Shown here: positions 7,088 through 22,536 of the stretch, in pieces
Layout of the letters: the number at the start of each line of letters is the position of its first letter
Position numbering within the stretch: the first letter of the stretch is position 1
Source of the DNA: a virus
Reading direction: 5' to 3' (one strand)
Length of the DNA: 23,123 nucleotides
IMG/VR virus record: IMGVR_UViG_3300020451_000651
Coordinates: 1 to 23,123 of that record
Program-made: the position numbers and the translations under genes
Notes under the pieces: generated by a model
Told to the model about the DNA's origin: nothing
Databases searched by the model: none
What the model saw: the letters and a program-made list of their open reading frames with translations, nothing else

Positions 7088-7239
7088 TGAGATTAAGAGA
7101 ACTTTGGGGAATACCTATACCAGGTACAGAAAAAGCAGTTGGACTTAAAAAAGTTTCAAAAAAATTAATGGGTAAAGTAAGAACTTATTACGAACCTGTT
7201 GGTAACAAGATTAATGAAAAGAATAAAGAGAAAAAATAA
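7087..7239 (+). CDS. 50-aa basic protein between gp14 and gp15
   Basis: A short intact gene, MRLRELWGIPIPGTEK and onward to 50 aa, rich in Lys and ending NEKNKEKK. It starts inside the stop codon of gp14 (TAATG at 7085-7089) and ends in the same way at the gp15 start (TAATG at 7237-7241), so all three are probably translationally coupled. This exact fit in a structural operon argues that it is a real gene. It has no membrane segment or recognisable domain. A neck or assembly-accessory role would suit the context but is only inference. Confidence 0.8.
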   Translation: MRLRELWGIPIPGTEKAVGLKKVSKKLMGKVRTYYEPVGNKINEKNKEKK

Positions 7240-8696
7240 TGCAACATTTTTACGACGGACAGGTTAGAAGATATATTACTCAGATCATTAGATTGATGAG
7301 TAATTTTTCTTACAAAGATGGTGATGATGCATTAAGAACTATCCCTGTAATGTATGGTGATATGACACGTCAAGTTGCACACATAATCAGAGATAATTCC
7401 GAAAATAAATTGCCAAGCATTCCTAGAATGGGAATATACATTACCAACTTGCAAATGGATAGAACAAGATTATCTGATGCAAGTTTTATTAGTAAAGTAC
7501 ATTTAAGAGAACGTTCCTACGATGCAACAGGCAAAGAATACCTAAACACGCAAGGAAAAAATGTTACAGTTGAAAGACTGATGCCAACTCCATACACATT
7601 AACAGTGAACTGTGATATTTGGTCAAGCAATACAGAACAAAAATTACAAATAATAGAACAAATTTGTATGTTATTCAATCCAAGTTTAGAAATTCAAACC
7701 ACTGACAATTATATAGACTGGACAAGTTTGAGTGTAGTTGAATTAGACAATATAAATTTTTCTAGCAGGTCTATTCCTGTTGGTACAGAAACAGAAGTGG
7801 ACGTGGCAACATTAACTTTCAGTATGCCTATATTCATTAGTCCACCAACCAAAGTAAAAAAATTAGGAGTGATTACTCATATTATTACAAGTATATTCAA
7901 CGAAAAGACTGGGAACATAGACCTAAGTCAATCTATGCCAGAACTAATGGCATATCAAGATGACTATGACAAAAGTATTAAAGCGTCAATCAGAACAAAT
8001 GCTGATGGTAGCGTCGATACAAGCGTTGCTTCGCGTAAAGATACTGCTAGTGTACAAGGCACAACAGGAACACAATTCGATATCTACGTCCTAGGACAAA
8101 CAGCATCTATAATTGACAAAGGCGTGATAGGCGGATTAGCATGGAACGGATATTTAGATGTGTTGTTAAATTACAAAGCAGGTTTAAGTAAAATACAATT
8201 GAACAGAGAAGGTATAGATGTGCCTGTAGTAGGAACTATTGCATTGAACGAATCTAATCCTATGCAATTATTGGTCACGTGGGACATGGACACAATACCT
8301 ACAGACACAGTAATAGTAGGACCTCAAGATACAAGAGGTAGTGTAGACTTTATTGTTGATCCTACAACATTTAATCCAAGTGCAATTAAACAAAATGGAA
8401 AACGTGTATTGCTACTAAAAGATATTGGTAGTTCACAAAACACAGATGGTGCAGATGCTTGGAAAAGCAACAGCAATGTAGATTTAATTGCAAGTGCCAA
8501 TGACATTGTAGAATGGAATGGTGCAAATTGGCAAATAATATTTGACGCAAGTACAAATCCTGATCCAGGTGATAGCACATTTACACCAACATACATTACC
8601 AATTTAAAAACTGGTATCCAATATAAATGGAATGGTAGTGAATGGATATTAAGTTTCGAAGGCGAATATCGTAAAGGAACCTGGAAGATCTCTTAA
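7239..8696 (+). CDS. 15: Tail sheath stabiliser / tail completion protein gp15, with C-terminal extension
   Basis: A 485-aa protein. The first 210 residues resemble T4 gp15 (272 aa): an N-terminal HFYDGQVRRYITQIIRLMSN (3-22), RMGIYITNL (63-71), a central PTPYTLTVNCDIWS (116-129) then QIIEQICMLFNPSLEI (137-152), and a terminal FSMPIFISPPTKVKK (194-208). gp15 caps the sheath/tube end and links the tail to the neck. Residues 210-485 are an extension absent from T4, finishing with two module-like motifs, IVEWNGANWQI (423-433) and YKWNGSEWILSF (462-473), akin to motifs in gp14 and the sheath. It starts within the stop of the 50-aa gene and ends 16 nt before the Nudix gene. Confidence 0.8.
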   Translation: MQHFYDGQVRRYITQIIRLMSNFSYKDGDDALRTIPVMYGDMTRQVAHIIRDNSENKLPSIPRMGIYITNLQMDRTRLSDASFISKVHLRERSYDATGKEYLNTQGKNVTVERLMPTPYTLTVNCDIWSSNTEQKLQIIEQICMLFNPSLEIQTTDNYIDWTSLSVVELDNINFSSRSIPVGTETEVDVATLTFSMPIFISPPTKVKKLGVITHIITSIFNEKTGNIDLSQSMPELMAYQDDYDKSIKASIRTNADGSVDTSVASRKDTASVQGTTGTQFDIYVLGQTASIIDKGVIGGLAWNGYLDVLLNYKAGLSKIQLNREGIDVPVVGTIALNESNPMQLLVTWDMDTIPTDTVIVGPQDTRGSVDFIVDPTTFNPSAIKQNGKRVLLLKDIGSSQNTDGADAWKSNSNVDLIASANDIVEWNGANWQIIFDASTNPDPGDSTFTPTYITNLKTGIQYKWNGSEWILSFEGEYRKGTWKIS

Positions 8697-8712: not shown

Positions 8713-9141
8713 ATGAGCAGTAAAATTATAGGGTGCGGTGCACTCTTCTATACTTTGGATACCCAAAGGTTTTTAGTACTTCATAGAGTGCAGAGCAAAC
8801 AAAATCACGTATGGGGATTAGTAGGTGGCACAACCGTAGATGAAAATTTATGGGAAGGACTACATAGAGAGATTAAAGAGGAAGTAGGTGAAGTAGAAAT
8901 AAAAAAGAAAATACCTATGGAAACTTTTATAAGCAATGATGAAAATTTTTTATATCACACTTTCTTGTGTGTTGTAGAGAAAGAATTTATTCCAAAATTA
9001 AACACAGAACACGATGGATATGCGTGGGTAAGTTTTGGTAATTGGCCCAAGCCATTACACCAAGGTTTACGTAAGACTCTTCAAAATAAAATGAACCAGG
9101 TCAAATTAGATACTGTGTTCAAAATGTTAAAATTAATGTAA
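8713..9141 (+). CDS. Nudix hydrolase
   Basis: A 142-aa protein with a complete Nudix box (Gx5Ex7REUXEEXGU) at residues 38-61: G38, E44, R52, E53, E56, E57 and G59 are all present, so it should bind Mg2+ and cleave a nucleoside-diphosphate-linked substrate. The substrate (oxidised dNTP, ADP-ribose, nucleotide sugar or RNA cap) cannot be read from the sequence. It follows gp15 by 16 nt without a clear ribosome site, and its stop overlaps the HldE start (TAATG at 9139-9143). Co-translation with HldE raises the possibility of a nucleotide-sugar substrate, but Nudix genes are common in T4-like phages for nucleotide clean-up. Confidence 0.88.
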   Translation: MSSKIIGCGALFYTLDTQRFLVLHRVQSKQNHVWGLVGGTTVDENLWEGLHREIKEEVGEVEIKKKIPMETFISNDENFLYHTFLCVVEKEFIPKLNTEHDGYAWVSFGNWPKPLHQGLRKTLQNKMNQVKLDTVFKMLKLM

Positions 9142-10394
9142 TGATTAAAATCATCGGTGATGTAATGCTTGATATGTGGACACAGGGCGATTGCCAAAAA
9201 GTGAGTCCAGAAGCACCGGTGCTTGTAGTTAAAGAAACAAACAAAGATTTCAATGTTGGAGGCGCTGGAAACCTAGCGTTAAACCTATCAAACTTGGGCA
9301 CAGACACGTGGCTTTATGGTGCCGTGGGCAACGACATCCCCGGACACAAAATCCAAGAAATTTTACTGCAAAATGGAGTAAAGTCGCATCTGTGCCAAGA
9401 TGGTGAAATGACAACTACCAAAACTAGAATCATAGGACAGAACGGACAACACCTTATTCGTGTGGACAAGGAGGAGAAATATAAGGCAGATACTCCTGTT
9501 GAAATACTGCTTGAAAATTTAAATGAAACCGATGTGGTAATTGTAAGTGATTACAACAAAGGAGTAATCAAAAAAGATACAATAACGAAAATTTTAGAAA
9601 AATGTAAGAATGTATATGTGGATCCAAAACAAGGATTTAGTAGATACGTTGGTGCATTTTTAGTCAAACCAAATATGAAAGAATATGAAGCATGGTTTGG
9701 TAATTTTAATATTGAAACTGCTAAAAAAATGTGTGAAGATAATGTATGGACATGGCTTGTTGTAACTGATGGAGCGAACGGTATACACGTAGTCACTAAA
9801 GATTCTTATGATCATATTAAAAGCAATACTGTTGAAGTTGCAGATGTAAGTGGTGCAGGTGATTCTGTACTTGCCATAATTGCACATTATTTTAAAACCA
9901 ACAATATGATTGCTTGTTGTGAATTAGCAGTTAAAGGTGCAGAAAAAATTGTGCAAAAAAGAGGAGTATCTATAATAGATAGATCAGATATTGAAGACAC
10001 AGTGGTATGGACAAATGGCGTTTTTGATATTCTGCATAAAGGACATTTAGAATTATTAAAATTTGCGAAACAGCAAGGAGATAGATTAATTGTTGGAATT
10101 AATTCTGATGCAAGTGTAAAAAGATTAAAGGGTGACGATAGACCATTCAATAATGCTTGGGCAAGAGAACAACAACTATTACAACTGCCCTGGGTGGACC
10201 AAGTGGTTGTATTTGAACAAGATACTCCCATAGATGCATTAAAAGAACATACACCAAACGTGATTGTAAAAGGTGGAGATTACACGTTCGACACAGTGGT
10301 CGGAAATGACCTTGCCGAAGTGATAATATTTCCAACAGTAGAAGGTTTTTCAACATCAAACATAGTGGACAAGGTTAATGGAAACAAGAATTGA
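9141..10394 (+). CDS. hldE: HldE-like bifunctional heptose-7-phosphate kinase / heptose-1-phosphate adenylyltransferase
   Basis: This 417-aa protein has both halves of HldE (RfaE). The N-terminal PfkB-type sugar kinase (about 1-280) has GDVMLD (6-11), SPEAPVLVV (22-30), GGAGN (40-44), VDPKQG (160-165) and the catalytic SGAGDS (237-242, base D241). The C-terminal nucleotidyltransferase (about 288-415) has TNGVFDILHKGH (291-302, HxGH), NSDASVKRLKG (321-331), VKGGDY (376-381) and FSTSNIV (403-409). The kinase makes heptose-1,7-bisphosphate and the other half charges heptose-1-phosphate with ATP to ADP-heptose. E. coli HldE is 477 aa, so this one is compact with a short linker, but all key motifs are intact. 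It overlaps the next gene by 17 bp. The first ~300 bp are clearly richer in G+C than the rest. Confidence 0.93.
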   Translation: MIKIIGDVMLDMWTQGDCQKVSPEAPVLVVKETNKDFNVGGAGNLALNLSNLGTDTWLYGAVGNDIPGHKIQEILLQNGVKSHLCQDGEMTTTKTRIIGQNGQHLIRVDKEEKYKADTPVEILLENLNETDVVIVSDYNKGVIKKDTITKILEKCKNVYVDPKQGFSRYVGAFLVKPNMKEYEAWFGNFNIETAKKMCEDNVWTWLVVTDGANGIHVVTKDSYDHIKSNTVEVADVSGAGDSVLAIIAHYFKTNNMIACCELAVKGAEKIVQKRGVSIIDRSDIEDTVVWTNGVFDILHKGHLELLKFAKQQGDRLIVGINSDASVKRLKGDDRPFNNAWAREQQLLQLPWVDQVVVFEQDTPIDALKEHTPNVIVKGGDYTFDTVVGNDLAEVIIFPTVEGFSTSNIVDKVNGNKN

Positions 10395-10983
10395 AAAAGG
10401 CAAATTAATTTGCACCAATGTAATTCAAAAAGAAGAATTTAAGATACTTACGGACAAAATGTTAAGTGATCATTTTCCTTGGTATTACTCGGAACACGTT
10501 GTTGAAGATGCACAAAAAATGACTGAGGAAAAAGAACAATTACAGTTTCAACACAACTTTCATGGAGTTTCCGATGTGACCACTGAACACAGTAATTGGG
10601 TAATGCTTTATCCAATCTTTAATGTATTGAAAGCAAATACTTTTATTAGAGTAAAAGCAAACAACATACCAAGAACAGAAAAAATTATTAAGCATGGATT
10701 CCATGCAGATACAAGAGTGGCATTAAGTTACACCGCAATTTATTATGTAAACACAACAGATGGTTACACTGAATTTAAAGATGGCACAAAAGTTCCTAGT
10801 GTAGAAAATTCAATGGTGGTATTTCCAAGTTACATGGAACACACAGGCACGACTTGTACAGATAAAAGAAGCAGGATTAACATAAACATGAACTACTTGA
10901 CCAACTGGCACGATGAACTTACTAAAGACATAAGACCAGAAGGCGCTGATAAAATTATAAAATTGTGGGAGAATGTTAAATGA
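10378..10983 (+). CDS. 2OG-Fe(II) oxygenase-like protein
   Basis: A 201-aa protein with the iron/2-oxoglutarate pattern of the prolyl-hydroxylase-like superfamily: H109xD111 in GFHADTRVAL, the distal histidine H155 in FPSYMEHTG, and R164/R166 in the following RSRININMNY strand. TAIYYVNTTDGYTEF between them is the usual core strand segment. The substrate is unknown. It lies between HldE (17-bp overlap) and HldD (4-bp ATGA overlap at 10980-10983) in one coupled unit, so it may hydroxylate a sugar intermediate, glycan or protein linked to that pathway. It is unlike the oxygenase at 4427-5071 in sequence. Confidence 0.75.
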   Translation: METRIEKGKLICTNVIQKEEFKILTDKMLSDHFPWYYSEHVVEDAQKMTEEKEQLQFQHNFHGVSDVTTEHSNWVMLYPIFNVLKANTFIRVKANNIPRTEKIIKHGFHADTRVALSYTAIYYVNTTDGYTEFKDGTKVPSVENSMVVFPSYMEHTGTTCTDKRSRININMNYLTNWHDELTKDIRPEGADKIIKLWENVK

Positions 10984-11798
10984 AAATTTGCTTAACAGGT
11001 TACAAAGGATTTATCGGAGATCATTTAGGAATGCATCTTACAAAACAAGGGCATGAAGTCATCGGCTTTAGATGGGAAGATTATAATCATTTTCCGGATC
11101 CGTCTTTGTATGATTGGATCATACATCTAGGAGCAATCACAAGCACAACTGAAAGAGACGTTGATAAAATCATGAAAACGAATTTAGAATACAGCATGAA
11201 ACTTTTGGAAATGTGCGACAACATGGGTACAAATTTTCAGTATGCCAGTTCCGCAAGTGTGTATGGGAACACAGGAAATTTCAAGGAAGATGGTGACGTG
11301 TATCCATTAAATGCTTATGCTTGGAGCAAATACCTATTTGATAGATTTGTTAATTCTGTAATGGGAGAATTTAAAGTGCTTGTACAAGGATTTAGATATT
11401 TTAATGTGTATGGACACAACGAAGAAAAGAAAGGCGATCAAGCATCTCCTGTAACTAAATTTGCCAATCAAGCAAAGACTGGCAAAATAAAATTGTTTGA
11501 AAACAGTGACAAGTATCTACGTGATTTTGTTAGTGTAGATGATGTCTGTGAGGTACATGGAAAAATGCTTAATGCTGATGTTTCTGGTATATTCAATGTT
11601 GGCACAGGAGCACCAATATCTTTTCAAAAAGTTGCAGAACTTGTTGCCAAAAAATATGACGCACAAATAGAAACAATACCCATGCCTGCAAAATTACAAG
11701 GTCAATATCAGACCTACACCAGTGCAGATTTAACAGAATTAAATAAAAATATAGAACACAAATTTAGAACAGTGGAGGAATTCTTAAATGTCAATTAA
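10980..11798 (+). CDS. hldD: HldD-like ADP-glyceromanno-heptose 6-epimerase
   Basis: A 272-aa extended short-chain dehydrogenase with an NAD(P) loop GYKGFIG (7-13) and catalytic residues in YASSASVYG (88-96) and Y113xxxK117 (YAWSK). Features that point to HldD and not a generic sugar epimerase are LGAITSTTERD (50-60), QGFRYFNVYG (136-145) with a following K-G-D-QASPV segment, YLRDFVSVDDV (179-189), SGIFNVGTGAPISFQ (202-216) and LQGQYQTYTSADL (239-251), all aligning in order with E. coli HldD (310 aa). HldD inverts C6 of ADP-D-glycero-D-manno-heptose to the L-glycero form used in LPS inner core. The gene starts within the stop of the oxygenase gene and overlaps the cupin gene by 11 bp. Confidence 0.88.
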   Translation: MKICLTGYKGFIGDHLGMHLTKQGHEVIGFRWEDYNHFPDPSLYDWIIHLGAITSTTERDVDKIMKTNLEYSMKLLEMCDNMGTNFQYASSASVYGNTGNFKEDGDVYPLNAYAWSKYLFDRFVNSVMGEFKVLVQGFRYFNVYGHNEEKKGDQASPVTKFANQAKTGKIKLFENSDKYLRDFVSVDDVCEVHGKMLNADVSGIFNVGTGAPISFQKVAELVAKKYDAQIETIPMPAKLQGQYQTYTSADLTELNKNIEHKFRTVEEFLNVN

Positions 11799-12177
11799 TA
11801 AAGAAGGAAAAATAGACAAAGGTTGGGGATATGAATTAATCTTTGCTTCCAATGATTTATATTGTGGAAAAATAATGGTTTTCAATAGAAAAGGTGCAAA
11901 ATTTTCAATGCACTATCACGCTGTAAAAGATGAATCATGGTTTATAAACAACGGTAAATTTTTATTAAGTTGGATAGATACCAAAGATGCAACATTATAT
12001 ACCAAAGAATTAAATGAAGGCGACACATGGCGTAATCCGCCGTTCCTACCTCATCAAGTACAATGTCTTACTGACAATGGAAGTATTACTGAAGTTAGTA
12101 CTGCTGATGATCCCAATGACAATTATCGCATAATTAAAGGCGATAATCAACAAACTACCGTTACTGAAGAAAAATAA
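11788..12177 (+). CDS. Small cupin protein, sugar-phosphate-isomerase-like
   Basis: A 129-aa single-domain cupin. Cupin motif 1 is complete: G36x5H42xH44x4E49x6G56. Motif 2 is recognisable at 78-89 (GDTWRNPPFLPH), with H89 as the fourth metal ligand and F at the usual second glycine. The N-terminal KGWGYELIFA and the H-x-H strand resemble mannose-6-phosphate-isomerase-type cupins. A clear ribosome site, GGAGG (11774-11778), lies 9 nt before the ATG, inside the end of hldD. As the last gene of the heptose unit it may act on a heptose or other sugar phosphate; that is inference. It abuts the convergent 2336-aa gene with no intervening base (stops at 12175-12177 and 12178-12180). Confidence 0.8.
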   Translation: MSINKEGKIDKGWGYELIFASNDLYCGKIMVFNRKGAKFSMHYHAVKDESWFINNGKFLLSWIDTKDATLYTKELNEGDTWRNPPFLPHQVQCLTDNGSITEVSTADDPNDNYRIIKGDNQQTTVTEEK

Positions 12178-15100
12178 TTAAGCCTGTGCTTCTGACCAAC
12201 GCAGTGTAACTGTTCCTGCAACAGAACCCGTTCCCGCTGTTCTAAATACGTTGATAGCCAACACGTCTGGACCATTAGGGAACGTACCACGTCCACCTAG
12301 TGTTGTGTTAGTTAAGGCTTTAATGGCGCTAAGAGCCAATGTTGCTCTTTCACCCGGTACCCCAATGAATGAAAAGATTGTTTCACCCGGTTGTGCATAT
12401 GGTGGTTGTCCAAATGTAAATGTAATTGCATCACCCGCCGCAATATTACCCGTCGACGTCTGTGTGAACGTAACTCTGTAGAAGTCAGTTGTTCCAAATG
12501 TATCTAATGAGTCAACTGATGCCACTGTTGTACCTGGTGGGAAAGTAGCGTAACTTACATCAACTTCTGTACCGCTAACTGCGTTAGAAGCCTCCCACGT
12601 TGTTTGATCCATGTACAAGAAGTTAGTACCGGATAGATCACCACCAAGTGTAAATGTCACTGCTTGATTTGAACTTATTCCTGTGTGTCTATTACTGAAT
12701 CTTACAAAGTAGTATGAGTTGTAGTCAATAATCTGTGTAACAACTGTACCTGAAGGGAACTGTCCGGAAGATACTGCCATACCTACTCTTAAACCTTTGC
12801 CTTCCCATTGTGCTTCAAGGAAGTATGCATAGTTTCTGTTACCACTCAAGTTGAACCAGTGGTTTGCTGTTGCAGTCATCTGTGCCTGTGTATTTGCTGT
12901 CGCTGTTGTTTGCGATGCACCACCGTTCCAGTTAACCGAACCACCTGCCGCAATCTGGGCAAAACTTGGCTGTCCACCTTGTGCTGGACCTTTCAAGTCA
13001 CCCCAACCTATATCTGCTGGATCAATTGGATAGTTTTGTGGATTCAATACACCCTGTACAACCAACTGTCCGTTTACACCCGCCGCTGGAACGTCAGTTG
13101 TAATCTCAACACCGTCTAGTAGCAACTGGGCTCTGTTAAGTAGATCTCTATCTCCTAGGTCACCTGTCAATGCGTTGGATACTGACGGTGCTAGTCTTAA
13201 TAGGAACACTGTTTGTTTTGTAGTTGTAAGTGCTAATCCTGTGGAAGCGTAACTGAATAGATATCCTCTATCTTCATCGAAGTTACCATCTGTTAGATAT
13301 GCTGATCCCCAGTGTGATATGATCGGTGATGCTGTGTTAGATATTAACACAACTCCTGTGTTTCTAAAGTGTGTTGTTGCCGCGCCGGCTGTATAGTTTC
13401 TTGTAGCACCTGCGTTAAAGTTTGTAAGTGTTGCCGCTCTTGTGGCACCAGTCAATACGTCACCTGTCTTACCTGTGTAAGTGATAATTTCATTGTCTAT
13501 GAAAATTGTTCCACCTGTTGACGGAAAGAAACTTGCATCAACTAATTGTACAGTTGTTTGTACAGTTGTCATATCTAATTCTAATCTACCGTTTGGACCT
13601 TCGTTGGTTACTTCGTAACGTACAGGTTGGTTACCTGTTCTCATAAATGCTTCTGTGTTAATGTTTGAATTTCTCATTCTGTGAGCAAATATAAAGTCAC
13701 CCTTTTGACCTCTTGCCATCCAGTCAATAAATCCAGCCCCGTACCATGAAAATTGTATCCCGATCATCTGCATCTTAGATACGTCCCAATTGTAACCGCT
13801 CTTGCTATTACCGTCCATTTTATCTCTATTAAATTCTGATTGTTTTGCTTTTTTGTCTACAACAGCACAAACTTTTACACCAGTTGAAGTGTTGACACCT
13901 CTATAATCTGGAGTAACAAACATTGATGTATTAGAAGCAACAGATGATATAACGTGTGTCATACCTCTGATTACTATTCTGTCACCTGCTTTAACTTGTT
14001 CTCTAAATCTTGTACCAGTTCCTGATACAGTGTTACTGTTAGGTGTAACAGTTACTACACCTGCAAGTTGTCTTGTTGCTGTTCTTTGTACTGCGTTTGT
14101 TGTTTGTCCATCATATTCCCAATAAATTCCGTTTTGGTCATCAAATATTCCTGATCTTACAGTTGCACCATTCCATTGATACAATGATACCTGTGGTTGA
14201 TCTGTAAATTCTGCTGTCGTTCCGCCAAGTGCGATAGTTGCCAATACTGTAAATGTTCTTTCATTTACAATACTTGCGATAGTGTATGTGCCATCATAAC
14301 CCGATGTGGCAATACCAATCAATCTTATTCTAGCACCTACCTGTAAATTGTGGTCAACATCATCAGTCGTTACTGTGATTGTTGATCCCTGTGCTAATCC
14401 GTCTGCTGTCACAGTCAATAGGTCATAACTTGGAGCAAACAAGGCACCCGTCGTATACATACAACCTTTACCTGATTGATATCTAATGTATTTTTTAGAT
14501 TGACGTATCGCCTGTGCACCGTGTGATGGACCACCTGTACCTAATTGTACACCTCCATCAAATGGTCTATGTATAAAGAATGAATCTGGTCTTGCATATA
14601 CAAAACCTTGCCAACCTGAATCTGTTATTGCACCCGGAGATCTAACTTGATATTGTAATCTTGTTGAGGATGGAATTGCCGTTGCTAGGAATGGACCTGA
14701 TGCAAGTATGTGATTATTGGCACCGTCATCTGATTGTATCACAATCAAGAATGCGTTTCCTGGAACTAGTCCGTGAGGAGTAGTAAAGTCTACCTGTATA
14801 GTTGCTAACGCACTGTAACTTATTGTGCTGTTCTGTGCGATGTTTTGTGAAATTGTTTCTGATATAGATATCGAACCATACACACTTAATCCTGTACCAG
14901 CCACTGCTGTACCGCTGTGTGTTTGTGTCAATATTCCGCCAGTTGTGTTTACACTTTGAACTCTTAACGTGATATCATTTGCCGGAGTTTGTCCACCTAA
15001 ACTAGTACCTGCTATCACAAGTTTGTCACCTATTGCATAGTTCGAACCTAAACTTGTTATTGTAACTTCTGTGTATGCTGTTGAAGAGTCAGTCTGGTTG

Positions 15101-18100
15101 GATCTTGTAGCACTGAACTGAGCACCAACTCCTGATGGAGTTCTGTTTGTACCACTTACTCCTAAAGAGTTACCAGTACCTGTGTTTGCCGTTCCTGCCA
15201 CACTGCCTATTGTTGTTACAACACCACTTGGAATATTGTTTACCGCTGTGATTGTAAAAGTTAAATCGTTTGTTGGTGATGTACCAAATAAATCTGTTCC
15301 TGCAATTTTAAATGTTTGATCAACGGCGTAGTTTGCACCTGGATTGTTAAGTGCAACGTTGTAAGAACCACTGTTCAGTGTTACGTTAACACTTAAACCT
15401 GTTCCTGTTATACCTGCTTTGTTAACATTGTTGTAAACCTGTGTGTTTACAGCCGTACCAGTTACTGTGAATGTTGCTACCGCACCTGCTGAAACTGTGT
15501 CAACAGTAATTTGACAATCATTTGCTGGACTTGTTCCACCTAATGCCGTACCCGCAATATCTATTGTTTCTGCACCTACAAATGAACTACCATTGTTGCT
15601 GAATGTTGCTGTATAAGTTGTGCCTGTTCTGTTTATATCAAACACTGCACCAGTACCCGAAGCGGATGTTGTGTATGCTGGACTTGTATAATCTACATTG
15701 GCATCTGTTGCCGTACCACTGATTGTTACACCTGTGATACCACCTGTACCGTTTACACCACTTACAGCCACATAAGCATCATTGGTTGTTGCCACTCCAC
15801 CTACGTCACCGCCGCCTACTAAGAATCGATCACCTACTTTGTAACCATTTGTTCCTTCTAGTGCCGCTGTGCCTGATGTTGAAATTGTGTTGATAGGGCC
15901 TGCACCAGTAGAACCTGTGATTGATGCTACTGTTATTGTTAAATCGTTTGCTGGTGTTGTACCACCTAAAGAAGTTCCTAATATTTTTAAATCTTGTCCT
16001 ACACTGTAATCGCTACCTGCTTGGTTTACTGATACTGAATAAGATGTTCCAGAAATTGCAACATCAAATGTTGCGTCAACACCTGATAAGTTTGTACCGC
16101 TTGATATTGCTGTGTAAGATTTTGTATCAACCGCTGTACCTGTAACGTTGAAAGTTAAAATTCCACCATTGCCATCAACTGCTGTTACTTCTAATGCCGC
16201 ATCATTGGCAGTTGTAGCACCACCTAGATTTGTTCCAACGAAAGTTAAAATATCATTCTGTTGATAGTTAGAACCTAAATTTGTAATTGCCGCTGAATAA
16301 GTTGTACCTGTTCTCGTAATGTTAAATGCCGCTGACGAACCGTTACCACCTGTAAATGCAACTGTGTTATAAGTTACTGTCTGTGCTGGTGCTGTACCTA
16401 ATACTGAAAGTGTTTGAATTGCTCCACCACCTGTTACTGCTGTTACTCTGATGTTTGCATGGTTGGCACTTGTACCACCAAATGTTGAACCGTCAATTCT
16501 AATTACATCATTGACAATGTATCCTGTACCTGCTCCGTTTACACTTGCAGAATAAGATCCTGCTGTTGCAACAACATCAAATGTTGCACTTGAACCTGCC
16601 GCTCCTGGGAAAGTTCCTACTGCTGTGCCTGTGTAAGTTGGTGAATTTAATGCAACTGTGTAAGATTGGTTTGTTTTTGTTACATTGAGTTGTGCACCTT
16701 GTCCTAATCCACCTTGGAATACTGCTGGTGTACCTGTTGTGCTTCCTGAACCAGTGAATGCAGATCCTGAAATAGTTGCTGTAAGGATTTCTCCTCCTGT
16801 GTCTACACTTTCTACTAATACTGTTGCGTCATTGGCTGGAGTAGAACCACCTAGAGTTGTTCCTGCTACAACTATCGCATCACCTACTGTGTAGTCTTGA
16901 CCTGATCCCGCAATAACAACGGAGTAGTTTCCACCATTTCTAGTGATATCAAATGTTGCTAATTGTCCCGCTGGGTTATAATTTACACCTGCTAGTCCTG
17001 TGTATTGTGTAATGTCACCAATTAAATTTTGTGTAAGAGGTCCTGATAATGTTAAGTTATTTCCAGCGATGTTTGTGATTGCAACTGCGTAACCATCTCC
17101 TCTATCAATTACTGAGTTTTGCACAATACCTGCTGAACTTGCCACAGTAATTTCTGTAACACCTGATAAAAAGTCTCCTGTAACGTTTGGAGATGCTAAT
17201 GAACCACCGGATCCGTTAGCACCAGTTACCTGTGTACCTGTTTGTATACCTGTTCCTGATAAAGGTGCACCAATTGGTGGCGTTGTACCTGTGTATGGTA
17301 AAATACTCGCACCACTTAAAGCACTTATTGTTGTTGTGAAAGTTCCTGAAGAACCATTACTTGCAACACTGAACGAAGGAAATCCAATCGCCGCTCCTGT
17401 GTAGAAGTCACCTTCTCTTAACTGTGTGTTAGTTGTAGAAATCGTTGTTGGGTTTGCAACGGCAACTTTTGCTTTTGCGTAGTATGTAAATTGTGTGTTA
17501 CTTACAATAGTGTTTACAACAAATGAACCCGCCGCTCTACTTGAACCTGATACTGCGTTGTTAAATCCTGTAATTGTAAACGGTTGTCCTGCTTCAAAGT
17601 TGTGTGGACCTACTGTTGTCACAGTGATTAAAGATGAACCAATACCTTGTGTTCCCGCAGAAGCATCAGAAGTTACAGTTGCTATATCAAAGTCTGTACC
17701 TGGTACTTCATAAATTGATGGATAACCTCTTTGTGTTGCAATCGCTTGCCACTTCGTAGGCTGAAGTCCGTATTCAAAGTCAGCGTCAAGCATTGATTCT
17801 GGTTGTGCAACTCTAAGTCTTTCAATCGCATCTGTTCCAAAGTCATGTGGACGTGTTCTTACTTCATCATCTTCAACAAATATTTGTATTTCATCTGTTG
17901 AGGCATCTGCTGATGTATCAGCATTTAAAAATATTGTAGTGATTACATCATTTCCGTGATATGCCTTAGGAAAATCTGGATCAACAAATGCTGTTGTGTT
18001 AGATGTTCCTGTTTCGTATTCTCTTTTGTAACTTACTGTTGCACCTTGTGTCGCGTCGTTGAATGTGTATAATACTGTGTTGTCTGTAGTGTTCGTGATC

Positions 18101-19188
18101 AATAATAATTCTGCTAATTCAACTCTTTCAGGAATTTTTACACTAGATATTCCGTTTGATACCTGTGCAGGTAAGTTGTCTAAACCATTTTGTATCACGT
18201 CTGTGATTATTCCGAATAAACTCGTAACTCTTGTACTTGCCGCAGATTCACCTGCTGAACCTAAAATTGTTTGTTGTGTAACAACAGGACTCTGTCTGCT
18301 TGAAAATGCTGTACCAGGAAAAATGTAATTGTTGATAATGCTTTTTATTTCATTTTTTGTTTGTATTTCTGGTTGTCTATTTCCTGTTAAAACAGATACT
18401 TCACCGTTCCAGTAAGTTCCTGCGTTGTATCTTGATTGTTCATTTCCACCATATCTTAAATCTTTTAATATACCAGTTAGATTGTAACCCATATCTCTTT
18501 CACAAAGGTAAGAGTCATATGTGTAATCTGCAAATGGATAACTTGAAATCACTTCTGCTGGTAAAGTAAGTATTCCATTGTCAATCGCATTAATTATTAC
18601 ATCCATGTTTGACTTCATCAATGTTCTACCAGCCGCTTCTCCATTAGAACCTGAAGTGTTTTGTGATATTCCTTCTGTGTTTATTGTAGAGTTAGCAACA
18701 CCTGGTAAGATGTAACTGTCGATCAAAGTTCTTGCGTAAGTCAAATATTGTATTTCAGGATTACCTTGGTCTCCTAATTGTAGTACACCATCGATATAGT
18801 ATGTGTTAGATTGTGTTCGCATTCTTTCGTTACCACCATATCTTGTGTCTTTGTATGCCGCATTAACAACTTTCTCAACGTCTGCTTTGATGTTCGCTGA
18901 TAAACCTGTGTAACCTGCAAATGGAGCCACGTTTCCTGCAACTTGGTTTTCAACATACTTGGCAACTTCCGCCTTGATGTAATTTAAGTTGTTTACTATT
19001 CTTGCTGATGCATTTGGGTAGGGATTGTATGCTGTGTCTGTTGTTACTCTTGAAGCAATAAAAGCCGTTGCTTCATCTTTTAAAAATTCAAAGTTGGCAT
19101 TTAGTTGTGCCCAAGCATTAGGATAGAGATTACCTGTTGAAGGTATACCTGGTATAAATTTATAGTCGTTTATTCGTTTTTTAGCCAT
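12178..19188 (-). CDS. Giant repeat-rich virion structural protein (fibre or baseplate-associated)
   Basis: A 2336-aa protein, low in charge and rich in Gly, Ser, Thr and Asn, as in phage adhesion fibres. In order: an N-terminal head, MAKKRINDYKFIPGIP; two tandem ~110-aa copies (100-213 and 232-343) with DTRYGGNE/DLRYGGNE; a conserved block with QPESMLDADFEYGLQPTKW (462-480) that I recall from structural proteins of marine T4-like phages; one PHNFEAGQ-type beta module; about eight beta repeats with a GTxLGGxTPAND core; two more PHGL/DHNL modules; and a distinctive C-terminal part with KKYIRYQSGKGCMYTTGALF and FIDWMARGQKGDFIF. No enzymatic motif is visible. It is 7 nt downstream of the 618-aa fibre gene on the same strand. 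It probably forms a long tail appendage. Its exact T4 counterpart is unclear. Confidence 0.85.
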   Translation of the reverse strand: MAKKRINDYKFIPGIPSTGNLYPNAWAQLNANFEFLKDEATAFIASRVTTDTAYNPYPNASARIVNNLNYIKAEVAKYVENQVAGNVAPFAGYTGLSANIKADVEKVVNAAYKDTRYGGNERMRTQSNTYYIDGVLQLGDQGNPEIQYLTYARTLIDSYILPGVANSTINTEGISQNTSGSNGEAAGRTLMKSNMDVIINAIDNGILTLPAEVISSYPFADYTYDSYLCERDMGYNLTGILKDLRYGGNEQSRYNAGTYWNGEVSVLTGNRQPEIQTKNEIKSIINNYIFPGTAFSSRQSPVVTQQTILGSAGESAASTRVTSLFGIITDVIQNGLDNLPAQVSNGISSVKIPERVELAELLLITNTTDNTVLYTFNDATQGATVSYKREYETGTSNTTAFVDPDFPKAYHGNDVITTIFLNADTSADASTDEIQIFVEDDEVRTRPHDFGTDAIERLRVAQPESMLDADFEYGLQPTKWQAIATQRGYPSIYEVPGTDFDIATVTSDASAGTQGIGSSLITVTTVGPHNFEAGQPFTITGFNNAVSGSSRAAGSFVVNTIVSNTQFTYYAKAKVAVANPTTISTTNTQLREGDFYTGAAIGFPSFSVASNGSSGTFTTTISALSGASILPYTGTTPPIGAPLSGTGIQTGTQVTGANGSGGSLASPNVTGDFLSGVTEITVASSAGIVQNSVIDRGDGYAVAITNIAGNNLTLSGPLTQNLIGDITQYTGLAGVNYNPAGQLATFDITRNGGNYSVVIAGSGQDYTVGDAIVVAGTTLGGSTPANDATVLVESVDTGGEILTATISGSAFTGSGSTTGTPAVFQGGLGQGAQLNVTKTNQSYTVALNSPTYTGTAVGTFPGAAGSSATFDVVATAGSYSASVNGAGTGYIVNDVIRIDGSTFGGTSANHANIRVTAVTGGGAIQTLSVLGTAPAQTVTYNTVAFTGGNGSSAAFNITRTGTTYSAAITNLGSNYQQNDILTFVGTNLGGATTANDAALEVTAVDGNGGILTFNVTGTAVDTKSYTAISSGTNLSGVDATFDVAISGTSYSVSVNQAGSDYSVGQDLKILGTSLGGTTPANDLTITVASITGSTGAGPINTISTSGTAALEGTNGYKVGDRFLVGGGDVGGVATTNDAYVAVSGVNGTGGITGVTISGTATDANVDYTSPAYTTSASGTGAVFDINRTGTTYTATFSNNGSSFVGAETIDIAGTALGGTSPANDCQITVDTVSAGAVATFTVTGTAVNTQVYNNVNKAGITGTGLSVNVTLNSGSYNVALNNPGANYAVDQTFKIAGTDLFGTSPTNDLTFTITAVNNIPSGVVTTIGSVAGTANTGTGNSLGVSGTNRTPSGVGAQFSATRSNQTDSSTAYTEVTITSLGSNYAIGDKLVIAGTSLGGQTPANDITLRVQSVNTTGGILTQTHSGTAVAGTGLSVYGSISISETISQNIAQNSTISYSALATIQVDFTTPHGLVPGNAFLIVIQSDDGANNHILASGPFLATAIPSSTRLQYQVRSPGAITDSGWQGFVYARPDSFFIHRPFDGGVQLGTGGPSHGAQAIRQSKKYIRYQSGKGCMYTTGALFAPSYDLLTVTADGLAQGSTITVTTDDVDHNLQVGARIRLIGIATSGYDGTYTIASIVNERTFTVLATIALGGTTAEFTDQPQVSLYQWNGATVRSGIFDDQNGIYWEYDGQTTNAVQRTATRQLAGVVTVTPNSNTVSGTGTRFREQVKAGDRIVIRGMTHVISSVASNTSMFVTPDYRGVNTSTGVKVCAVVDKKAKQSEFNRDKMDGNSKSGYNWDVSKMQMIGIQFSWYGAGFIDWMARGQKGDFIFAHRMRNSNINTEAFMRTGNQPVRYEVTNEGPNGRLELDMTTVQTTVQLVDASFFPSTGGTIFIDNEIITYTGKTGDVLTGATRAATLTNFNAGATRNYTAGAATTHFRNTGVVLISNTASPIISHWGSAYLTDGNFDEDRGYLFSYASTGLALTTTKQTVFLLRLAPSVSNALTGDLGDRDLLNRAQLLLDGVEITTDVPAAGVNGQLVVQGVLNPQNYPIDPADIGWGDLKGPAQGGQPSFAQIAAGGSVNWNGGASQTTATANTQAQMTATANHWFNLSGNRNYAYFLEAQWEGKGLRVGMAVSSGQFPSGTVVTQIIDYNSYYFVRFSNRHTGISSNQAVTFTLGGDLSGTNFLYMDQTTWEASNAVSGTEVDVSYATFPPGTTVASVDSLDTFGTTDFYRVTFTQTSTGNIAAGDAITFTFGQPPYAQPGETIFSFIGVPGERATLALSAIKALTNTTLGGRGTFPNGPDVLAINVFRTAGTGSVAGTVTLRWSEAQA
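14893..16988 (-). repeat. Tandem beta-repeat array in the giant structural protein
   Basis: At least eight protein repeats, spaced irregularly from about 60 to 125 aa, each with a strand ending in Y.V....G..Y.VGD, then the core (G/A)(T/S)xLGG(T/S)(T/S)PAND, then V..V...GG(I/A). Core copies lie near 16840, 16475, 16205, 15950, 15780, 15530, 15280 and 14985 on the minus strand. Variants include TFGGTSANHAN, DVGGVATTNDA and DLFGTSPTNDL. The copies are diverged at the DNA level. Array ends are approximate. Confidence 0.75.
18160..18891 (-). repeat. Tandem domain duplication near the N-terminus of the giant protein
   Basis: Residues 100-213 and 232-343 align along their length: (T/L)RYGGNE, then Y(Y/W).G.V..L......PEIQ, then I..YI.PG, then a G..GE.A..R..(S) block, II..I.NG, and LPA.V. 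The copies are clearly diverged. Between them is SYLCERDMGYNLTGILKDL, a segment common upstream of such domains in marine phage structural proteins. Confidence 0.7.
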
Positions 19189-19195
19189 TCTTTTT

Positions 19196-21052
19196 CTATG
19201 CTCCTAAGGCAATACTTAATACTGTCGCCGTGTTATCTACATACGACTTTCTAGTTAAACTATTAGCCGTTGCCGGCCCACTTGTTACAGTAGCCGATGT
19301 AAATGCCGCCTGCGCCGCAGTTGTTAATCCTATTGTAGTACTATTTAACGTTCCTGCACTCGAAACCAAACTTGAAAAGGTTCCATTTCTTGGTGTTGTT
19401 CCGCCCACTGTGACGTTATCTAATGAGCCTACTGAAAGAGGACTAATTGTAAGGTTACCACTTGCTTGTGGACTTATTGTAACATCTGCATTTGGTGTTA
19501 AATTTACGTTTCCTGATGTTGTTAATTGTGCTGTATTAACATTCATGTTATTAATGCTACCTGTAGTCTCAGGATTAATGGTGATCAATCCTGTTCCAGT
19601 TGGTTTCATTTCTATATTTGCATTAACACCATTCTGTAATAAATTTCCTGTGTTTAAAATACTGCTGAATACACCAACACCAATTACTGATGGTTGTGTA
19701 ACTGTAACCGTTCCGAACGGATTTCCATCACTGTCACCATAAAACATACTGTCCGGAGCATCTACTGGAACTGTGTAACTTAAATTTCCTGTTTGTTGAC
19801 CTTGCGCCGCCGCATCTGTCAAAGTCGTAGATGTAGGAATATCCAAATATGTTGAAGGAGTAATTTGTGTTGTAATTAATGTTCTAATATCATTCTGTAC
19901 ACCAGAAAAATTGTTAGCCACAGTTGGAAATGAGTACATTTTAACTGATGTGTAATCGTATAGATTACTTCCATTTGGTTGTAAAGTTGCTGATGTAATT
20001 TTTGTTCCACTGTAAGCGTTTGCAACAGCCATTCCATGAATACTATCTACACCGCTGTATAAACTTTGACCTAAGTAAGTTCCGCCGTTGAATAAAAAAT
20101 TAAGTTCTTGTTCACCATTGAACATTAATACTTGTCTTTGTCCTATTGGTGTAAGTTCACTCCAACTAATTTCAGTTGATGTATCGTTGTCTACAGAATT
20201 TAAAGAATAATTGTAAAATTTTCCTAAAGTAGAATTGTATTGGTCCATGTGTAGAAGACCATTGTAACAAATTATATTTTTTATTGTTGCAGATTGATTG
20301 TAATTAGAATATTGTAGAGCCAACTGAGCACCGTTTCCATAACCTATTATTGTAATTTCTCTTGTATCAACGTTATCATAATTTGCCAAGTCAGCAATAA
20401 TTGAATCTAACAATGCTATATCATCTGCTTTACTAGATTGATATCCTACGTTCCATGTGTTATTGTAACCTTGAGGCGCAATTAACACTGAATTTGTAAT
20501 GTAATTTATTGACGCTAATCCTGTTGCACTAGTGCTACCTGAATCATGTAAAGCAATTACAACTGGTAATTTTTTAGTTGCATATGACGTTCCTGTTGTG
20601 TCAGGCACAAAATATTGTGCAGTTCTATTTGCTCCAGTAGTTGCTTGTTGCCAAGTTTGTGAGAAATTTTTACTTCCTGTAACTAATGTCGAACCAGTTA
20701 CAATGTTTGTGTGTGATAATCCTGTGCTGTAAAGTAATCCTGGAACAGCACTGTTACCTGTATCTGCTTTGTAAATGTTAAATGCTAAACTGTTTAAAGT
20801 TAAATTTATAGAATATGTTTTACCACGTTCTATAGTAATTGTTGGATTGTTTCCTGCAACTGCTGTACCGTCTTTTTTCCATGTAAAAGCACCTGATGTT
20901 TCCTCTACATTAAAATCTGGAACCACTGCCGGAGCAGGTGGAGTATATGTGTTAGTAATTGTACGGACAGTTACGTTACCTGCCGTATCAACTGCGAATC
21001 CTGTACTTTGAAAACCATTTTCACTTATGAAAGGTCTTTTTACTACTGCCAT
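19196..21052 (-). CDS. Tail-fibre-like adhesin with an embedded alpha/beta-hydrolase-like domain
   Basis: A 618-aa protein starting MAVVKRPFISENGFQSTG, like N-termini of marine phage fibres. Residues 55-116 form the first half of a cupredoxin-like beta domain (PTITIERGKTYSINL, LLYSTGLSHTN). Its usual closing half, TGNLSYTVPVDAPDSMFYG, appears only at 421-439. Between them, about 143-395, is an alpha/beta-hydrolase-like domain of PHB-depolymerase/esterase type: LPVVIALHDSGS (162-173), VLIAPQGYNNTWNVG (189-203), DDIALLDSIIADL (210-222) and ITIIGYGNGAQLAL (233-246). The nucleophile elbow GxSxG reads GYGNG, with Gly at 239. The C-terminal part has fibre repeats such as GNVNLTPNADVTISPQASGN and IG.TTP..GTF-type segments. 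Its ATG follows the stop of the 144-aa gene by one base. Likely host binding; enzymatic activity doubtful. Confidence 0.8.
   Translation of the reverse strand: MAVVKRPFISENGFQSTGFAVDTAGNVTVRTITNTYTPPAPAVVPDFNVEETSGAFTWKKDGTAVAGNNPTITIERGKTYSINLTLNSLAFNIYKADTGNSAVPGLLYSTGLSHTNIVTGSTLVTGSKNFSQTWQQATTGANRTAQYFVPDTTGTSYATKKLPVVIALHDSGSTSATGLASINYITNSVLIAPQGYNNTWNVGYQSSKADDIALLDSIIADLANYDNVDTREITIIGYGNGAQLALQYSNYNQSATIKNIICYNGLLHMDQYNSTLGKFYNYSLNSVDNDTSTEISWSELTPIGQRQVLMFNGEQELNFLFNGGTYLGQSLYSGVDSIHGMAVANAYSGTKITSATLQPNGSNLYDYTSVKMYSFPTVANNFSGVQNDIRTLITTQITPSTYLDIPTSTTLTDAAAQGQQTGNLSYTVPVDAPDSMFYGDSDGNPFGTVTVTQPSVIGVGVFSSILNTGNLLQNGVNANIEMKPTGTGLITINPETTGSINNMNVNTAQLTTSGNVNLTPNADVTISPQASGNLTISPLSVGSLDNVTVGGTTPRNGTFSSLVSSAGTLNSTTIGLTTAAQAAFTSATVTSGPATANSLTRKSYVDNTATVLSIALGA
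19814..20704 (-). other. Inserted alpha/beta-hydrolase-like domain (nucleophile serine replaced)
   Basis: Residues about 117-413 of the fibre interrupt the cupredoxin-like domain. The order of strand-loop motifs matches LpqC/PHB-depolymerase-like hydrolases: VV.ALH, APQG...WN, DD...L...I, then the elbow strand, then VLMFNGEQELNFLFNGG (308-324), which sits where these enzymes have their acid loop. The elbow codon at 20338-20336 is GGA (Gly) where family members have Ser. The expected C-terminal histidine region (VKMYSFPTVANNF, 370-382) has no His. Boundaries are estimated from the flanking beta-domain halves. Confidence 0.65.
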
Positions 21053-21053
21053 A

Positions 21054-21488
21054 TTAACTTGTTACCTGACTTCCTCCCACTAATGCATTTTGCGTTGCAA
21101 AATAAGTGGCACTGAATATTATTTTAGATCCTGAATATTTCTCTGTTTGAGTTTTATCCGTAGGACTTACTGTTATTTTACACAATGAATTGTCTACTGT
21201 GCTGTCTATTGTTATTAGATTGTTTCCTAAATTTGTTCTAGCATATATTGTAAGTGCTGATTGATTGGGACTTGCTGTTACTAACATTTTAATAAGTTCT
21301 TTGTTGTTAGTATCGTAGTCAACTTGTATGGCATATTCAGCCGATGAAAACGTATTCACATGGAACTTGTCTAATACTAGACCGTCCTCTACAACTCCAT
21401 ATGGCCCATTGTGTGAAAAATTTAAACCATTCTTCAAAAGAAGCGTGTTTTTATCACCCTTGCCAAAAAATCTTGATACATCAAACAT
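21054..21488 (-). CDS. Unknown 144-aa protein upstream of the fibre gene
   Basis: An intact small protein, starting MFDVSRFFGKGDKNTLLLKNG, predicted from its composition to be mostly beta strand, with no signal peptide, membrane segment or known motif that I can identify. AGGGA lies about 10 nt upstream of the ATG, and a late-promoter-like GGTAAATA precedes it (21520-21513). The next gene, the 618-aa fibre, starts one base after its stop, so it probably heads a late structural unit of three genes including the giant protein. A minor virion protein or fibre-attachment protein would fit the context. Confidence 0.7.
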   Translation of the reverse strand: MFDVSRFFGKGDKNTLLLKNGLNFSHNGPYGVVEDGLVLDKFHVNTFSSAEYAIQVDYDTNNKELIKMLVTASPNQSALTIYARTNLGNNLITIDSTVDNSLCKITVSPTDKTQTEKYSGSKIIFSATYFATQNALVGGSQVTS

Positions 21489-21555: not shown

Positions 21556-22536
21556 TTATTTACGGGCGTTTTTGCCGTGTTTGATAAGCCTTTGTACAGA
21601 TTTAATAATACGTGTTTCTACTTCCTCATCCATAGCCATAATACCTTCATTAAGTCTGTCTGAAAACTCATCTGAAGTGACTCTTATTGGACTGTACACA
21701 CGTTCATCTTTACCTAAATCAATTACATTGAATTTTTCATCATCTGGAAAAGTAGTATTAATAGGATACGTAGAGCCTATTATCACAGTTGCTGATTTAT
21801 TATATGAATGAGCAATATGTTGACCCACTGAATCGCAACCAACAAAATGATCCGCTTGTTGAATAATACCCATCCATACTCTAATGTGTGTTCCCATAGG
21901 CAATGCCACTGGTTTATTGGGTATGTGCTTTCCAAAGTCTAATGGAAATTCACTCATTACCATTACACCATAATCTTTGCTTAATTTACGTACAATATTC
22001 CAAACATTTTGTAGTTCTACACTTCTTCCTGTAGAGTCTATTATGTCAGGTTGTTTTTCTTTTTGTTTTTCATCAAGTTTTTCTGGCTGTGCGCCTCTGC
22101 CGAAAGGTTGGAATACAACAATCTTATCTTTTCCTGTTTTTTCTTTGACTTCCGCAATCATTTTTCGTGCTAATAATATTTCTTCCTTGCTTAATTTTAA
22201 ATTTGCTCTTGGCAAATCTCTAATTCCTTTATCATTTATTGCTATATCATATGCTTGACCTAAACTACATTTTTGATTGTAATATTCCCATACTCTATAT
22301 GGTTCAGGCGATAATAAATCTCTATCTTTTAATAAATCTTGGAATAAATTTTTGTGCCAATTGTCATATGCTCTATAATGTAGTTTAGGATGACCTTTGT
22401 ATGCATCTGTACCACCTTCGCAAATGATAATTGGATCTAGATCTGCGTTCTCTTCTATGTATTTTTCTATTGCTGGTATTGAACTTATGCTTCTACCTGC
22501 ACCACCGTTTACAAATATTGCTGTTTTTCTAGCCAT
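21556..22536 (-). CDS. GT9/heptosyltransferase-like glycosyltransferase
   Basis: A 326-aa protein with the two-domain outline of glycosyltransferase family 9 (ADP-heptose:LPS heptosyltransferases). The N-terminal FVNGGAGRSISSIPAIEKY (8-26) is like the GT9 start G..GD.....PAL..L, KIVVFQPFGRGAQ (138-150) opens the second Rossmann domain, and ADHFVGCDSVGQHIAHSYNK (228-247) plus VIIGST (251-256) matches the GT9 donor-site segment AD.FIG.DSG..HLA..L.KP...LFG.T. The Gly-Pro of the usual DSGP is Val-Gly here. It overlaps the upstream carbamoyltransferase by 8 bp, so the two are coupled. The donor could be ADP-heptose, given hldE/hldD 10 kb away; this is inferred. Such phage proteins may also be diverged and non-catalytic. 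Confidence 0.7.
   Translation of the reverse strand: MARKTAIFVNGGAGRSISSIPAIEKYIEENADLDPIIICEGGTDAYKGHPKLHYRAYDNWHKNLFQDLLKDRDLLSPEPYRVWEYYNQKCSLGQAYDIAINDKGIRDLPRANLKLSKEEILLARKMIAEVKEKTGKDKIVVFQPFGRGAQPEKLDEKQKEKQPDIIDSTGRSVELQNVWNIVRKLSKDYGVMVMSEFPLDFGKHIPNKPVALPMGTHIRVWMGIIQQADHFVGCDSVGQHIAHSYNKSATVIIGSTYPINTTFPDDEKFNVIDLGKDERVYSPIRVTSDEFSDRLNEGIMAMDEEVETRIIKSVQRLIKHGKNARK

Follow-up and report, generated by a model that had tools for sequence, protein, structure and literature searches.

A phage fibre-type protein with a hydrolase domain, probably non-catalytic, nested in its cupredoxin-like beta domain

Introduction

The vestigial esterase subdomain of influenza haemagglutinin has lost its activity. 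The term 'vestigial esterase' is used in PMC7551194; amongst phages, PMC9569702 describes fibres carrying active esterases of the SGNH fold (G7C gp63.1 and Possum gp66), together with deacetylase domains in phage fibres. In the pelagimyophages, tail fibres and glycosyltransferases are found within a hypervariable 'host recognition cluster' located between VrlC and gp14 (PMC7029224). Hydrolases are also encoded by cyanophages: SShM2_094 of GU071096.1 (L010:7017-8738), annotated as 'gp7 baseplate wedge initiator', consists of YHYH and alpha/beta-hydrolase parts according to Pfam, NCBIfam and PHROGs. The YHYH-hydrolase gene lies directly upstream of gp9 in S-SSM4 and ACG-2014d, with one small gene between the two in S-ShM2 (L010, L252 and L253).

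Here we describe a related hydrolase nested inside the beta domain of a fibre-type protein, P0001, encoded by a metagenomic virus record of 23,123 bases (the window, by which we mean the whole stretch of DNA analysed). Orthologues of P0001 that carry the hydrolase are referred to as inserted, and those in which the same beta domain is uninterrupted as empty-site.

Results

Gene neighbourhood of the fibre-type protein

The annotated genes of the window that place P0001 in context are as follows:

176-3409, tail sheath, T4-like (phrog_10581)
5115-5873, head-tail adaptor (phrog_211)
7239-8696, gp15-type sheath stabiliser (PF16724, E 1.1e-24)
12178-19188, minus strand, virion structural protein of 2336 amino acids (P0002; phrog_5838), the next gene after the fibre gene and adjoining it in 19/19 loci searched
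19196-21052, minus strand, the whole fibre-like protein P0001, 618 amino acids with stop codon, a continuous open reading frame
21054-21488, minus strand, gene for a 144-amino acid protein that precedes the fibre gene, its neighbour in all 19 loci searched, inserted and empty-site alike
21556-22536, minus strand, phrog_8954 gene with a weak GT9-like match, found at this place in the inserted clade only

Beyond the phrog_8954 gene, on the preceding side of the fibre, lies the end of a carbamoyltransferase gene. The order carbamoyltransferase, 144-amino acid protein, fibre and P0002 homologue is common to inserted and empty-site loci; the carbamoyltransferase is at its expected place in 18 of the 19 loci searched, and the sequence of the remaining locus stops short of it. 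The phrog_8954 gene, situated between the carbamoyltransferase gene and that for the 144-amino acid protein, is present at every inserted locus where the region is visible (31/31, from a total of 35) and at none of the 11 empty-site loci. As both this gene and the insert map to one branch, we count their co-occurrence as a single joint event, not as 42 independent observations. A second copy of phrog_8954, 46-57% identical, sits upstream of the carbamoyltransferase in 11/19 loci searched. Adjoining the fibre block, the plus strand at 8713-12177 encodes a NUDIX protein, a PfkB-cytidylyltransferase fusion, an epimerase and a cupin; that is, sugar-related and other small-molecule genes.

We regard P0001 as a protein of fibre type, encoded where a T4-like marine myovirus has its host-recognition region, with incorporation into the virion predicted from its position, its repetitive beta part and its neighbours.

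Overall architecture of P0001

P0001 is encoded by a single, uninterrupted gene and can be divided, working from the N-terminus, into the following parts (all on the minus strand):

20924-21052, N-terminal segment, residues 1-43, with the conserved pattern GFxSxGFxVDxxGNVxVRT; similar in alignments of the empty-site orthologues
20705-20923, first half of the cupredoxin-like beta domain, residues 44-116, matching the first part of the empty-site HMM; predicted strands 72-75, 79-85, 91-96, 104-107 and 112-115
19829-20704, inserted alpha/beta-hydrolase with short linkers, residues ~117-408, identified by profile and fold matches; absent from empty-site orthologues
20336-20338, codon for Gly239 at the catalytic serine position (G-Y-G-N-G in place of GxSxG); Gly in 22/22 inserted sequences
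20105-20107, codon for Glu316 at the catalytic aspartate position; Glu in 8/22 and Asp in 14/22
19901-19927, residues 376-384, the loop that bears the catalytic His in relatives, here without His; in 22/22 neither the column nor the positions next to it have His
19691-19828, second half of the cupredoxin-like domain, residues 409-454, matching the last part of the empty-site HMM; predicted strands 410-412, 421-427, 435-439 and 445-452
19199-19690, repetitive beta fibre part, residues 455-618, ending KxYVD...IALG, kept in inserted and empty-site orthologues; low-confidence model

An AlphaFold2 model of P0001 was built from an alignment of 20 sequences, 47-91% identical to it. Whilst the mean pLDDT is 60, values of 80-91 were obtained for residues 41-130 and 401-450, and mostly of 76-90 for 141-240 with a dip at 191-210; residues 265-350 are poorly predicted. 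A comparison of P0001 with PDB sequences, at E up to 10, returned no match, and one with named phages, at E up to 1e-5, returned 14 cyanophage records, each matched through the hydrolase part.

The split beta domain and its empty site

The initial annotation had proposed that a hydrolase interrupts a split cupredoxin-like fibre domain, and this is borne out by the way in which P0001 aligns with its empty-site relatives, the interruption being found in 35 contigs. Comparison of P0001 with an HMM built from the empty-site domain gives two matching pieces that almost complement one another, with HMM positions 19-77 on residues 61-128 and positions 69-122 on residues 407-461. When residues 118-407 are removed the two pieces become a single match of 104.8 bits; 16 control deletions of equal length placed elsewhere all score lower, the best of them (95.5 bits) being shifted by 7 residues. 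Once joined, the flanks also give a single continuous match to phrog_677, an independent family (E 1.8e-8). The interval proposed at the outset, 19814-20704, corresponds to residues 117-413; the insert runs from residue ~117 to ~408.

The empty-site domain of one orthologue (L169) was also modelled, with a mean pLDDT of 76 and blocks of 75-93 over residues 31-120. Its predicted strands (29-33, 37-43, 49-53, 64-68, a turn, 71-74, a helix at 75-78, 83-89, 97-101 and 107-114) correspond to those of the P0001 model, where the insert follows strand 112-115 and is succeeded by strand 410-412, a helix at 413-416 and the remaining three strands; the only departure is the short extra strand 104-107 in P0001. 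The point of insertion is thereby located in the two-residue turn of a beta-hairpin, between L169 strands 64-68 and 71-74. Homology with the uninterrupted domain, in combination with this predicted strand order, indicates that residues 55-116 and 421-451 of P0001 would form the two halves of one domain.

A Foldseek search with the L169 model gave the cupredoxin AcoP as its first match (E 1.7e-3, probability 1.00; none with E < 0.001), followed by arginine deiminases, scoring alike, and then by amicyanin and copper enzymes. A second structural comparison placed the multicopper oxidase 3gdc at the top (Z 8.4), with the best 50 matches listed being multicopper oxidases, laccases or copper nitrite reductases. 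With modest confidence, and from modelled structure, we therefore describe the host domain as a cupredoxin-like beta barrel. The copper ligands of a cupredoxin are His, Cys, His and Met; in alignments against cyanophage gp9 this pattern is absent from both the inserted forms of P0001 and the empty-site orthologues, with HPF of gp9 replaced by LAF in P0001 and YYQC..H..M by FYGDSDGNPF.

One fibre orthologue of 729 amino acids (L160:2444-4630) has, in addition to the hydrolase, an extra piece of ~110 amino acids in another loop of the cupredoxin-like domain. This piece matches 293 phage records; amongst the best 5 of the 293, two are named virion structural protein and one gp7.

Fold and family of the inserted hydrolase

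Residues 130-375 match phrog_2576 (E 5.7e-21), and residues 139-246 match NCBIfam NF050058, extracellular PHA depolymerase (E 4.6e-8; 32.9 bits, below the curated cut-off of 150). A structural search, suggested in the initial annotation for residues 143-395 and made with model residues 118-401, retrieved the acetyl xylan esterase AoAXEB (9j07) with Z 16.0 and an rmsd of 4.0 Å over 230 aligned residues, with feruloyl esterases and PHB depolymerases following it among the best 50 matches listed; an alpha/beta-hydrolase fold is thus found, residues 265-350 of the model being of low confidence. Judged by profile and predicted fold, the insert is a complete alpha/beta-hydrolase domain of the type seen in extracellular PHB depolymerases and CE1 esterases, in agreement with the resemblance first read from the sequence. 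A scan of bacterial genomes found two relatives, a number too small to point to a donor; one of these (L189) was left out of the active-site census and tree, being cut off before the active site.

Distribution and history of the insert

Fibres lacking the insert, sought at the suggestion of the initial annotation, are indeed present at the same locus. A scan with a C-terminal profile gave 62 loci, of which 47 contigs were classified as 35 inserted (22 distinct sequences), 11 empty-site (10 distinct) and 1 fragment, the 15 others (L173-L187) being partial profile matches that were left unclassified. Neither an N-terminal query (31 loci) nor an N-terminal profile (36 loci) returned an empty-site form. 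The empty-site proteins are 276-349 amino acids long, counted from the first start codon, and have a similar N-terminus and C-terminal end on either side of an uninterrupted beta domain. The fibres of S-CAM1 and S-CAM3, considered as empty-site forms at the same locus, were ruled out on sequence.

A tree of the fibre was calculated from the flanks only, with insert columns excluded (31 rows; L165 and L166 were dropped as near copies of L164). All 22 inserted rows fall on one side of a branch supported at 99/95 and, with a midpoint root, the empty rows occupy several deep branches surrounding one inserted clade, making a single gain of the insert the simplest reading. That reading falls short of certainty because the tree program flags empty rows L169-L172 as long branches, and because the choice between gain and loss depends on midpoint rooting. 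Taken together with the empty-site orthologues at the same locus, the tree supports the earlier proposal of domain capture into a loop.

Loss of catalytic residues and selection on the insert

The active site was surveyed in an alignment of 56 hydrolase domains. In all 22 distinct fibre inserts the nucleophile position is Gly and the catalytic His column lacks His, with the acid position occupied by Asp in 14 and Glu in 8; Ser, Asp and His are kept in 5/5 YHYH-type proteins, in ACG-2014h and in the one bacterial protein aligned. The residue after LH of the oxyanion loop, usually Gly, is Asp in 16, Glu in 1 and Asn in 5 of the 22 inserts, but this is weak evidence, as 3/27 non-fibre domains that keep Ser, Asp and His also have a residue other than Gly here (2/5 YHYH-type and 1/20 Ser-keeping domains of the second host described below). 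Within residues 122-402 the sole His invariant in the 22 inserts is H169, which precedes the oxyanion position and is present in aligned relatives too. On this sequence evidence the nested hydrolase is probably not an enzyme; as both nucleophile and His are lost in 22/22 distinct inserts, the processing of surface polymers, one of two functions originally suggested, is unlikely. The other, receptor binding, is plausible as a candidate role.

Selection was assessed in 11 pairs for each half of the insert. By simple Nei-Gojobori counts, in which some dS values are near saturation, dN was below dS in all 22 comparisons, with dN/dS of 0.03-0.39 in 21 and, for a pair of almost identical sequences, of 0.6 in the other; on these figures the insert is being maintained and is not decaying. 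No part of the protein varies as much as the second half of the insert (residues 261-402), and this holds in each of the close, middle and far sets; at middle distance its identity is 49%, whilst the five remaining parts have 62-70%. Conservation at the nucleophile elbow is 0.76 against a domain mean of 0.58, with 13% of segments of the same length as conserved; values for the His loop (0.47) and the oxyanion loop (0.56), set against the same mean, make a retained binding pocket no more than a possibility.

A second nesting of the same hydrolase family

The hydrolase family is also nested, independently, in the N-terminal beta domain of unrelated phage proteins of ~1160 amino acids (L190-L243, L249 and L017-L042), which have a He_PIG (putative Ig) domain elsewhere in the chain. 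Seven relatives of this second host have the domain uninterrupted (L244-L248, L250 and L251; six distinct stretches), and in two of these a YHYH-like part precedes it. In each of the six inserted proteins tested, the two halves match separate, partly overlapping parts of an empty-site HMM; joining them gives one match of 83-106 bits (6/6), whereas control joins that retain part of the hydrolase still give two matches, the better scoring 53-80 bits.

The census of the second host took in 55 of 63 loci (L041, L244-L248, L250 and L251 were left out), with 3/55 then dropped because their 5' ends are missing, and 27 distinct domains remained; their nucleophile position is Ser in 20, Gly in 4 and Asp in 3. 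In a hydrolase tree, calculated after removal of the nucleophile, acid and His columns, the nucleophile needs four changes, several of the forks behind them being weakly supported (94/73, 91/74 and 87/68). The Gly found in L210-L212 might have arisen together with the one in the fibre clade.

In L226, L231 and L235 (also L026, L032 and L036) the nucleophile Ser is replaced by Asp, with the catalytic Asp and His kept. Hydrolases with an Asp nucleophile exist and, by analogy, the three Asp forms might be active by another chemistry rather than represent a loss.

Discussion

The account that we consider likely is that a captured, dead hydrolase is nested in the cupredoxin-like domain of the fibre and has been kept as a putative binding or decoration domain. 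The hydrolase would have been gained once, in one clade, by a host domain that, without a copper site whether or not it carries the insert, could act as a rigid platform. The hairpin turn would bring the ends of the insert close together, so that both domains could fold, with the dead hydrolase presumably protruding from the fibre. Here, it may have been kept to bind or decorate, for example in contact with a host surface glycan or polymer, and any such binding might use either the former substrate face or the variable second half. An adhesin or decoration role fits best for this candidate binding insert, and the sugar-modifying genes close by, which the pelagimyophage 'host recognition cluster' also has, agree with it. 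In most phage fibres the receptor site lies at the C-terminal tip and, set against this, an insert that begins at residue 117 of 618 counts against the binding reading.

The nested hydrolase could instead be a structural spacer or stabiliser, free of any ligand, that adds bulk to the fibre, sets the orientation of adjacent subunits or covers the shaft. Loss of the catalytic residues, a catalytic His loop that is not specially conserved, and purifying selection are all compatible with this, as is the different ~110-amino acid piece in another loop of the L160 host domain, which implies that the domain tolerates inserts. We nevertheless regard a spacer as rather unlikely: high variability such as that of the second half would be seen more often in an exposed face for interaction than in a unit for packing, and a fold of ~290 amino acids kept down to 47% whole-protein identity is a costly one. 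That the insert still acts as an enzyme on a surface polymer, by means of unusual residues, is in keeping with a fold and family that are those of extracellular depolymerases and esterases, with the Asp or Glu retained at the acid position, and with the active SGNH deacetylase domains described in phage fibres in PMC9569702; set against a nucleophile that is Gly, and a His loop devoid of His, throughout the 22 inserts, we consider it very improbable. The only invariant His, H169, sits before the oxyanion position and is shared with relatives, and the Asp, Glu or Asn that follows it in 22/22 is a further, weak point against activity.

The direction of change and the integrity of the sequence also bear on the favoured account of a captured, dead hydrolase. 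A hydrolase already present in the ancestral fibre, and later lost from the empty-site lineages, would be permitted by a midpoint root in a tree with no outgroup. Against this, that root distributes the empty rows over several deep branches that surround a single inserted clade, and domains of the same kind in cyanophage gp9 are uninterrupted; ancestral loss is, in our view, improbable. The window is a metagenomic virus record, a type of source in which chimeric assembly or a frameshift might create such an arrangement, but 35 contigs with 22 distinct sequences, each in one continuous frame, make an artefact scarcely credible.

Across the two hosts, we put forward only tentatively, as a possibility falling somewhat short of an even chance, a broader reading: that the PHB-depolymerase-like hydrolase is a recurrent plug-in, nested at least twice in unrelated beta domains, in which the serine nucleophile was lost on some four occasions and which now serves as a putative non-catalytic recognition domain (a 'pseudo-hydrolase adhesin') in marine T4-like phages. 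The locus presents a domain insertion that can be read with the empty site still present in same-locus relatives, and a captured enzyme fold whose catalytic residues are lost although selection has maintained the domain. Whether phages repeatedly convert enzymes to recognition domains along one and the same path becomes open to testing, and the case advises caution in annotating such proteins as depolymerases.

Comparison with known systems

A literature search, in which few subscription papers were covered, found no report of such a nested hydrolase among the papers listed, and PMC7824862 and PMC10769870 have no bearing on it; several described systems do resemble P0001 in part. With the type 1 PHA depolymerases and CE1 esterases (NF050058; LpqC, 3d0k; AoAXEB, 9j07) the insert shares its fold and detectable sequence homology, differing in having neither Ser nucleophile nor catalytic His and in being nested in a phage beta domain. 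The phrog_2576 proteins of cyanophages (S-ShM2 SShM2_094, YHYH plus hydrolase) are 32.9% identical to P0001 residues 163-312 and are likewise encoded beside baseplate and fibre genes but, unlike in P0001, the hydrolase of SShM2_094 follows the YHYH domain end to end and keeps its Ser-Asp-His. S-MbCM7_177 of Synechococcus phage ACG-2014h (28.2% identity over residues 131-442) also combines a hydrolase and a plastocyanin-like domain in one chain; there, subtilase, hydrolase and cupredoxin-like domains are arranged in series with the triad intact, whereas in P0001 the arrangement is nested and the triad lost.

Amongst named proteins, the two beta halves, when joined, are matched best by the C-terminal domain of gp9, the baseplate wedge tail fibre connector (phrog_677; P-RSM4 and S-RIM4), which, in contrast to that of P0001, is uninterrupted, keeps the His, Cys, His and Met of a copper-type site and is accompanied by a T4 gp9/10 N-terminal domain. 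T4_gp9_10_N is present in gp9 of P-RSM4 and S-RIM4 and is not among the P0001 domain matches at E up to 1; with one domain in common and the gp9 N-terminal domain missing, identity of P0001 with gp9 was ruled out. As the YHYH-hydrolase gene lies near gp9, whose C-terminal domain is cupredoxin-like, the path to a fusion would be short. In S-CAM1 a tail fibre lies between a block of sugar genes and a phrog_5838 protein, followed by gp13, gp14 and gp15, an order close to that of the window; this fibre (SXBG_00215; phrog_11338) occupies the position of P0001 in the gene order and resembles it at the C-terminal end, but has a different N-terminal part and no hydrolase. The carbamoyltransferase, PfkB/cytidylyltransferase, epimerase and cupin content of the window is similar to that of the pelagimyophage 'host recognition cluster' (PMC7029224); a likeness of gene content that carries no assignment to the pelagimyophages.

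Amongst adsorption proteins more generally, G7C gp63.1 and Possum gp66 have, as P0001 does, a hydrolase domain within a phage adsorption protein, theirs being of the SGNH fold and enzymatically active, probably unlike that of P0001 (PMC9569702). Influenza haemagglutinin, an analogy only since both virus and fold are unrelated, likewise keeps an esterase-derived subdomain, termed vestigial in PMC7551194, in a viral receptor-binding protein.
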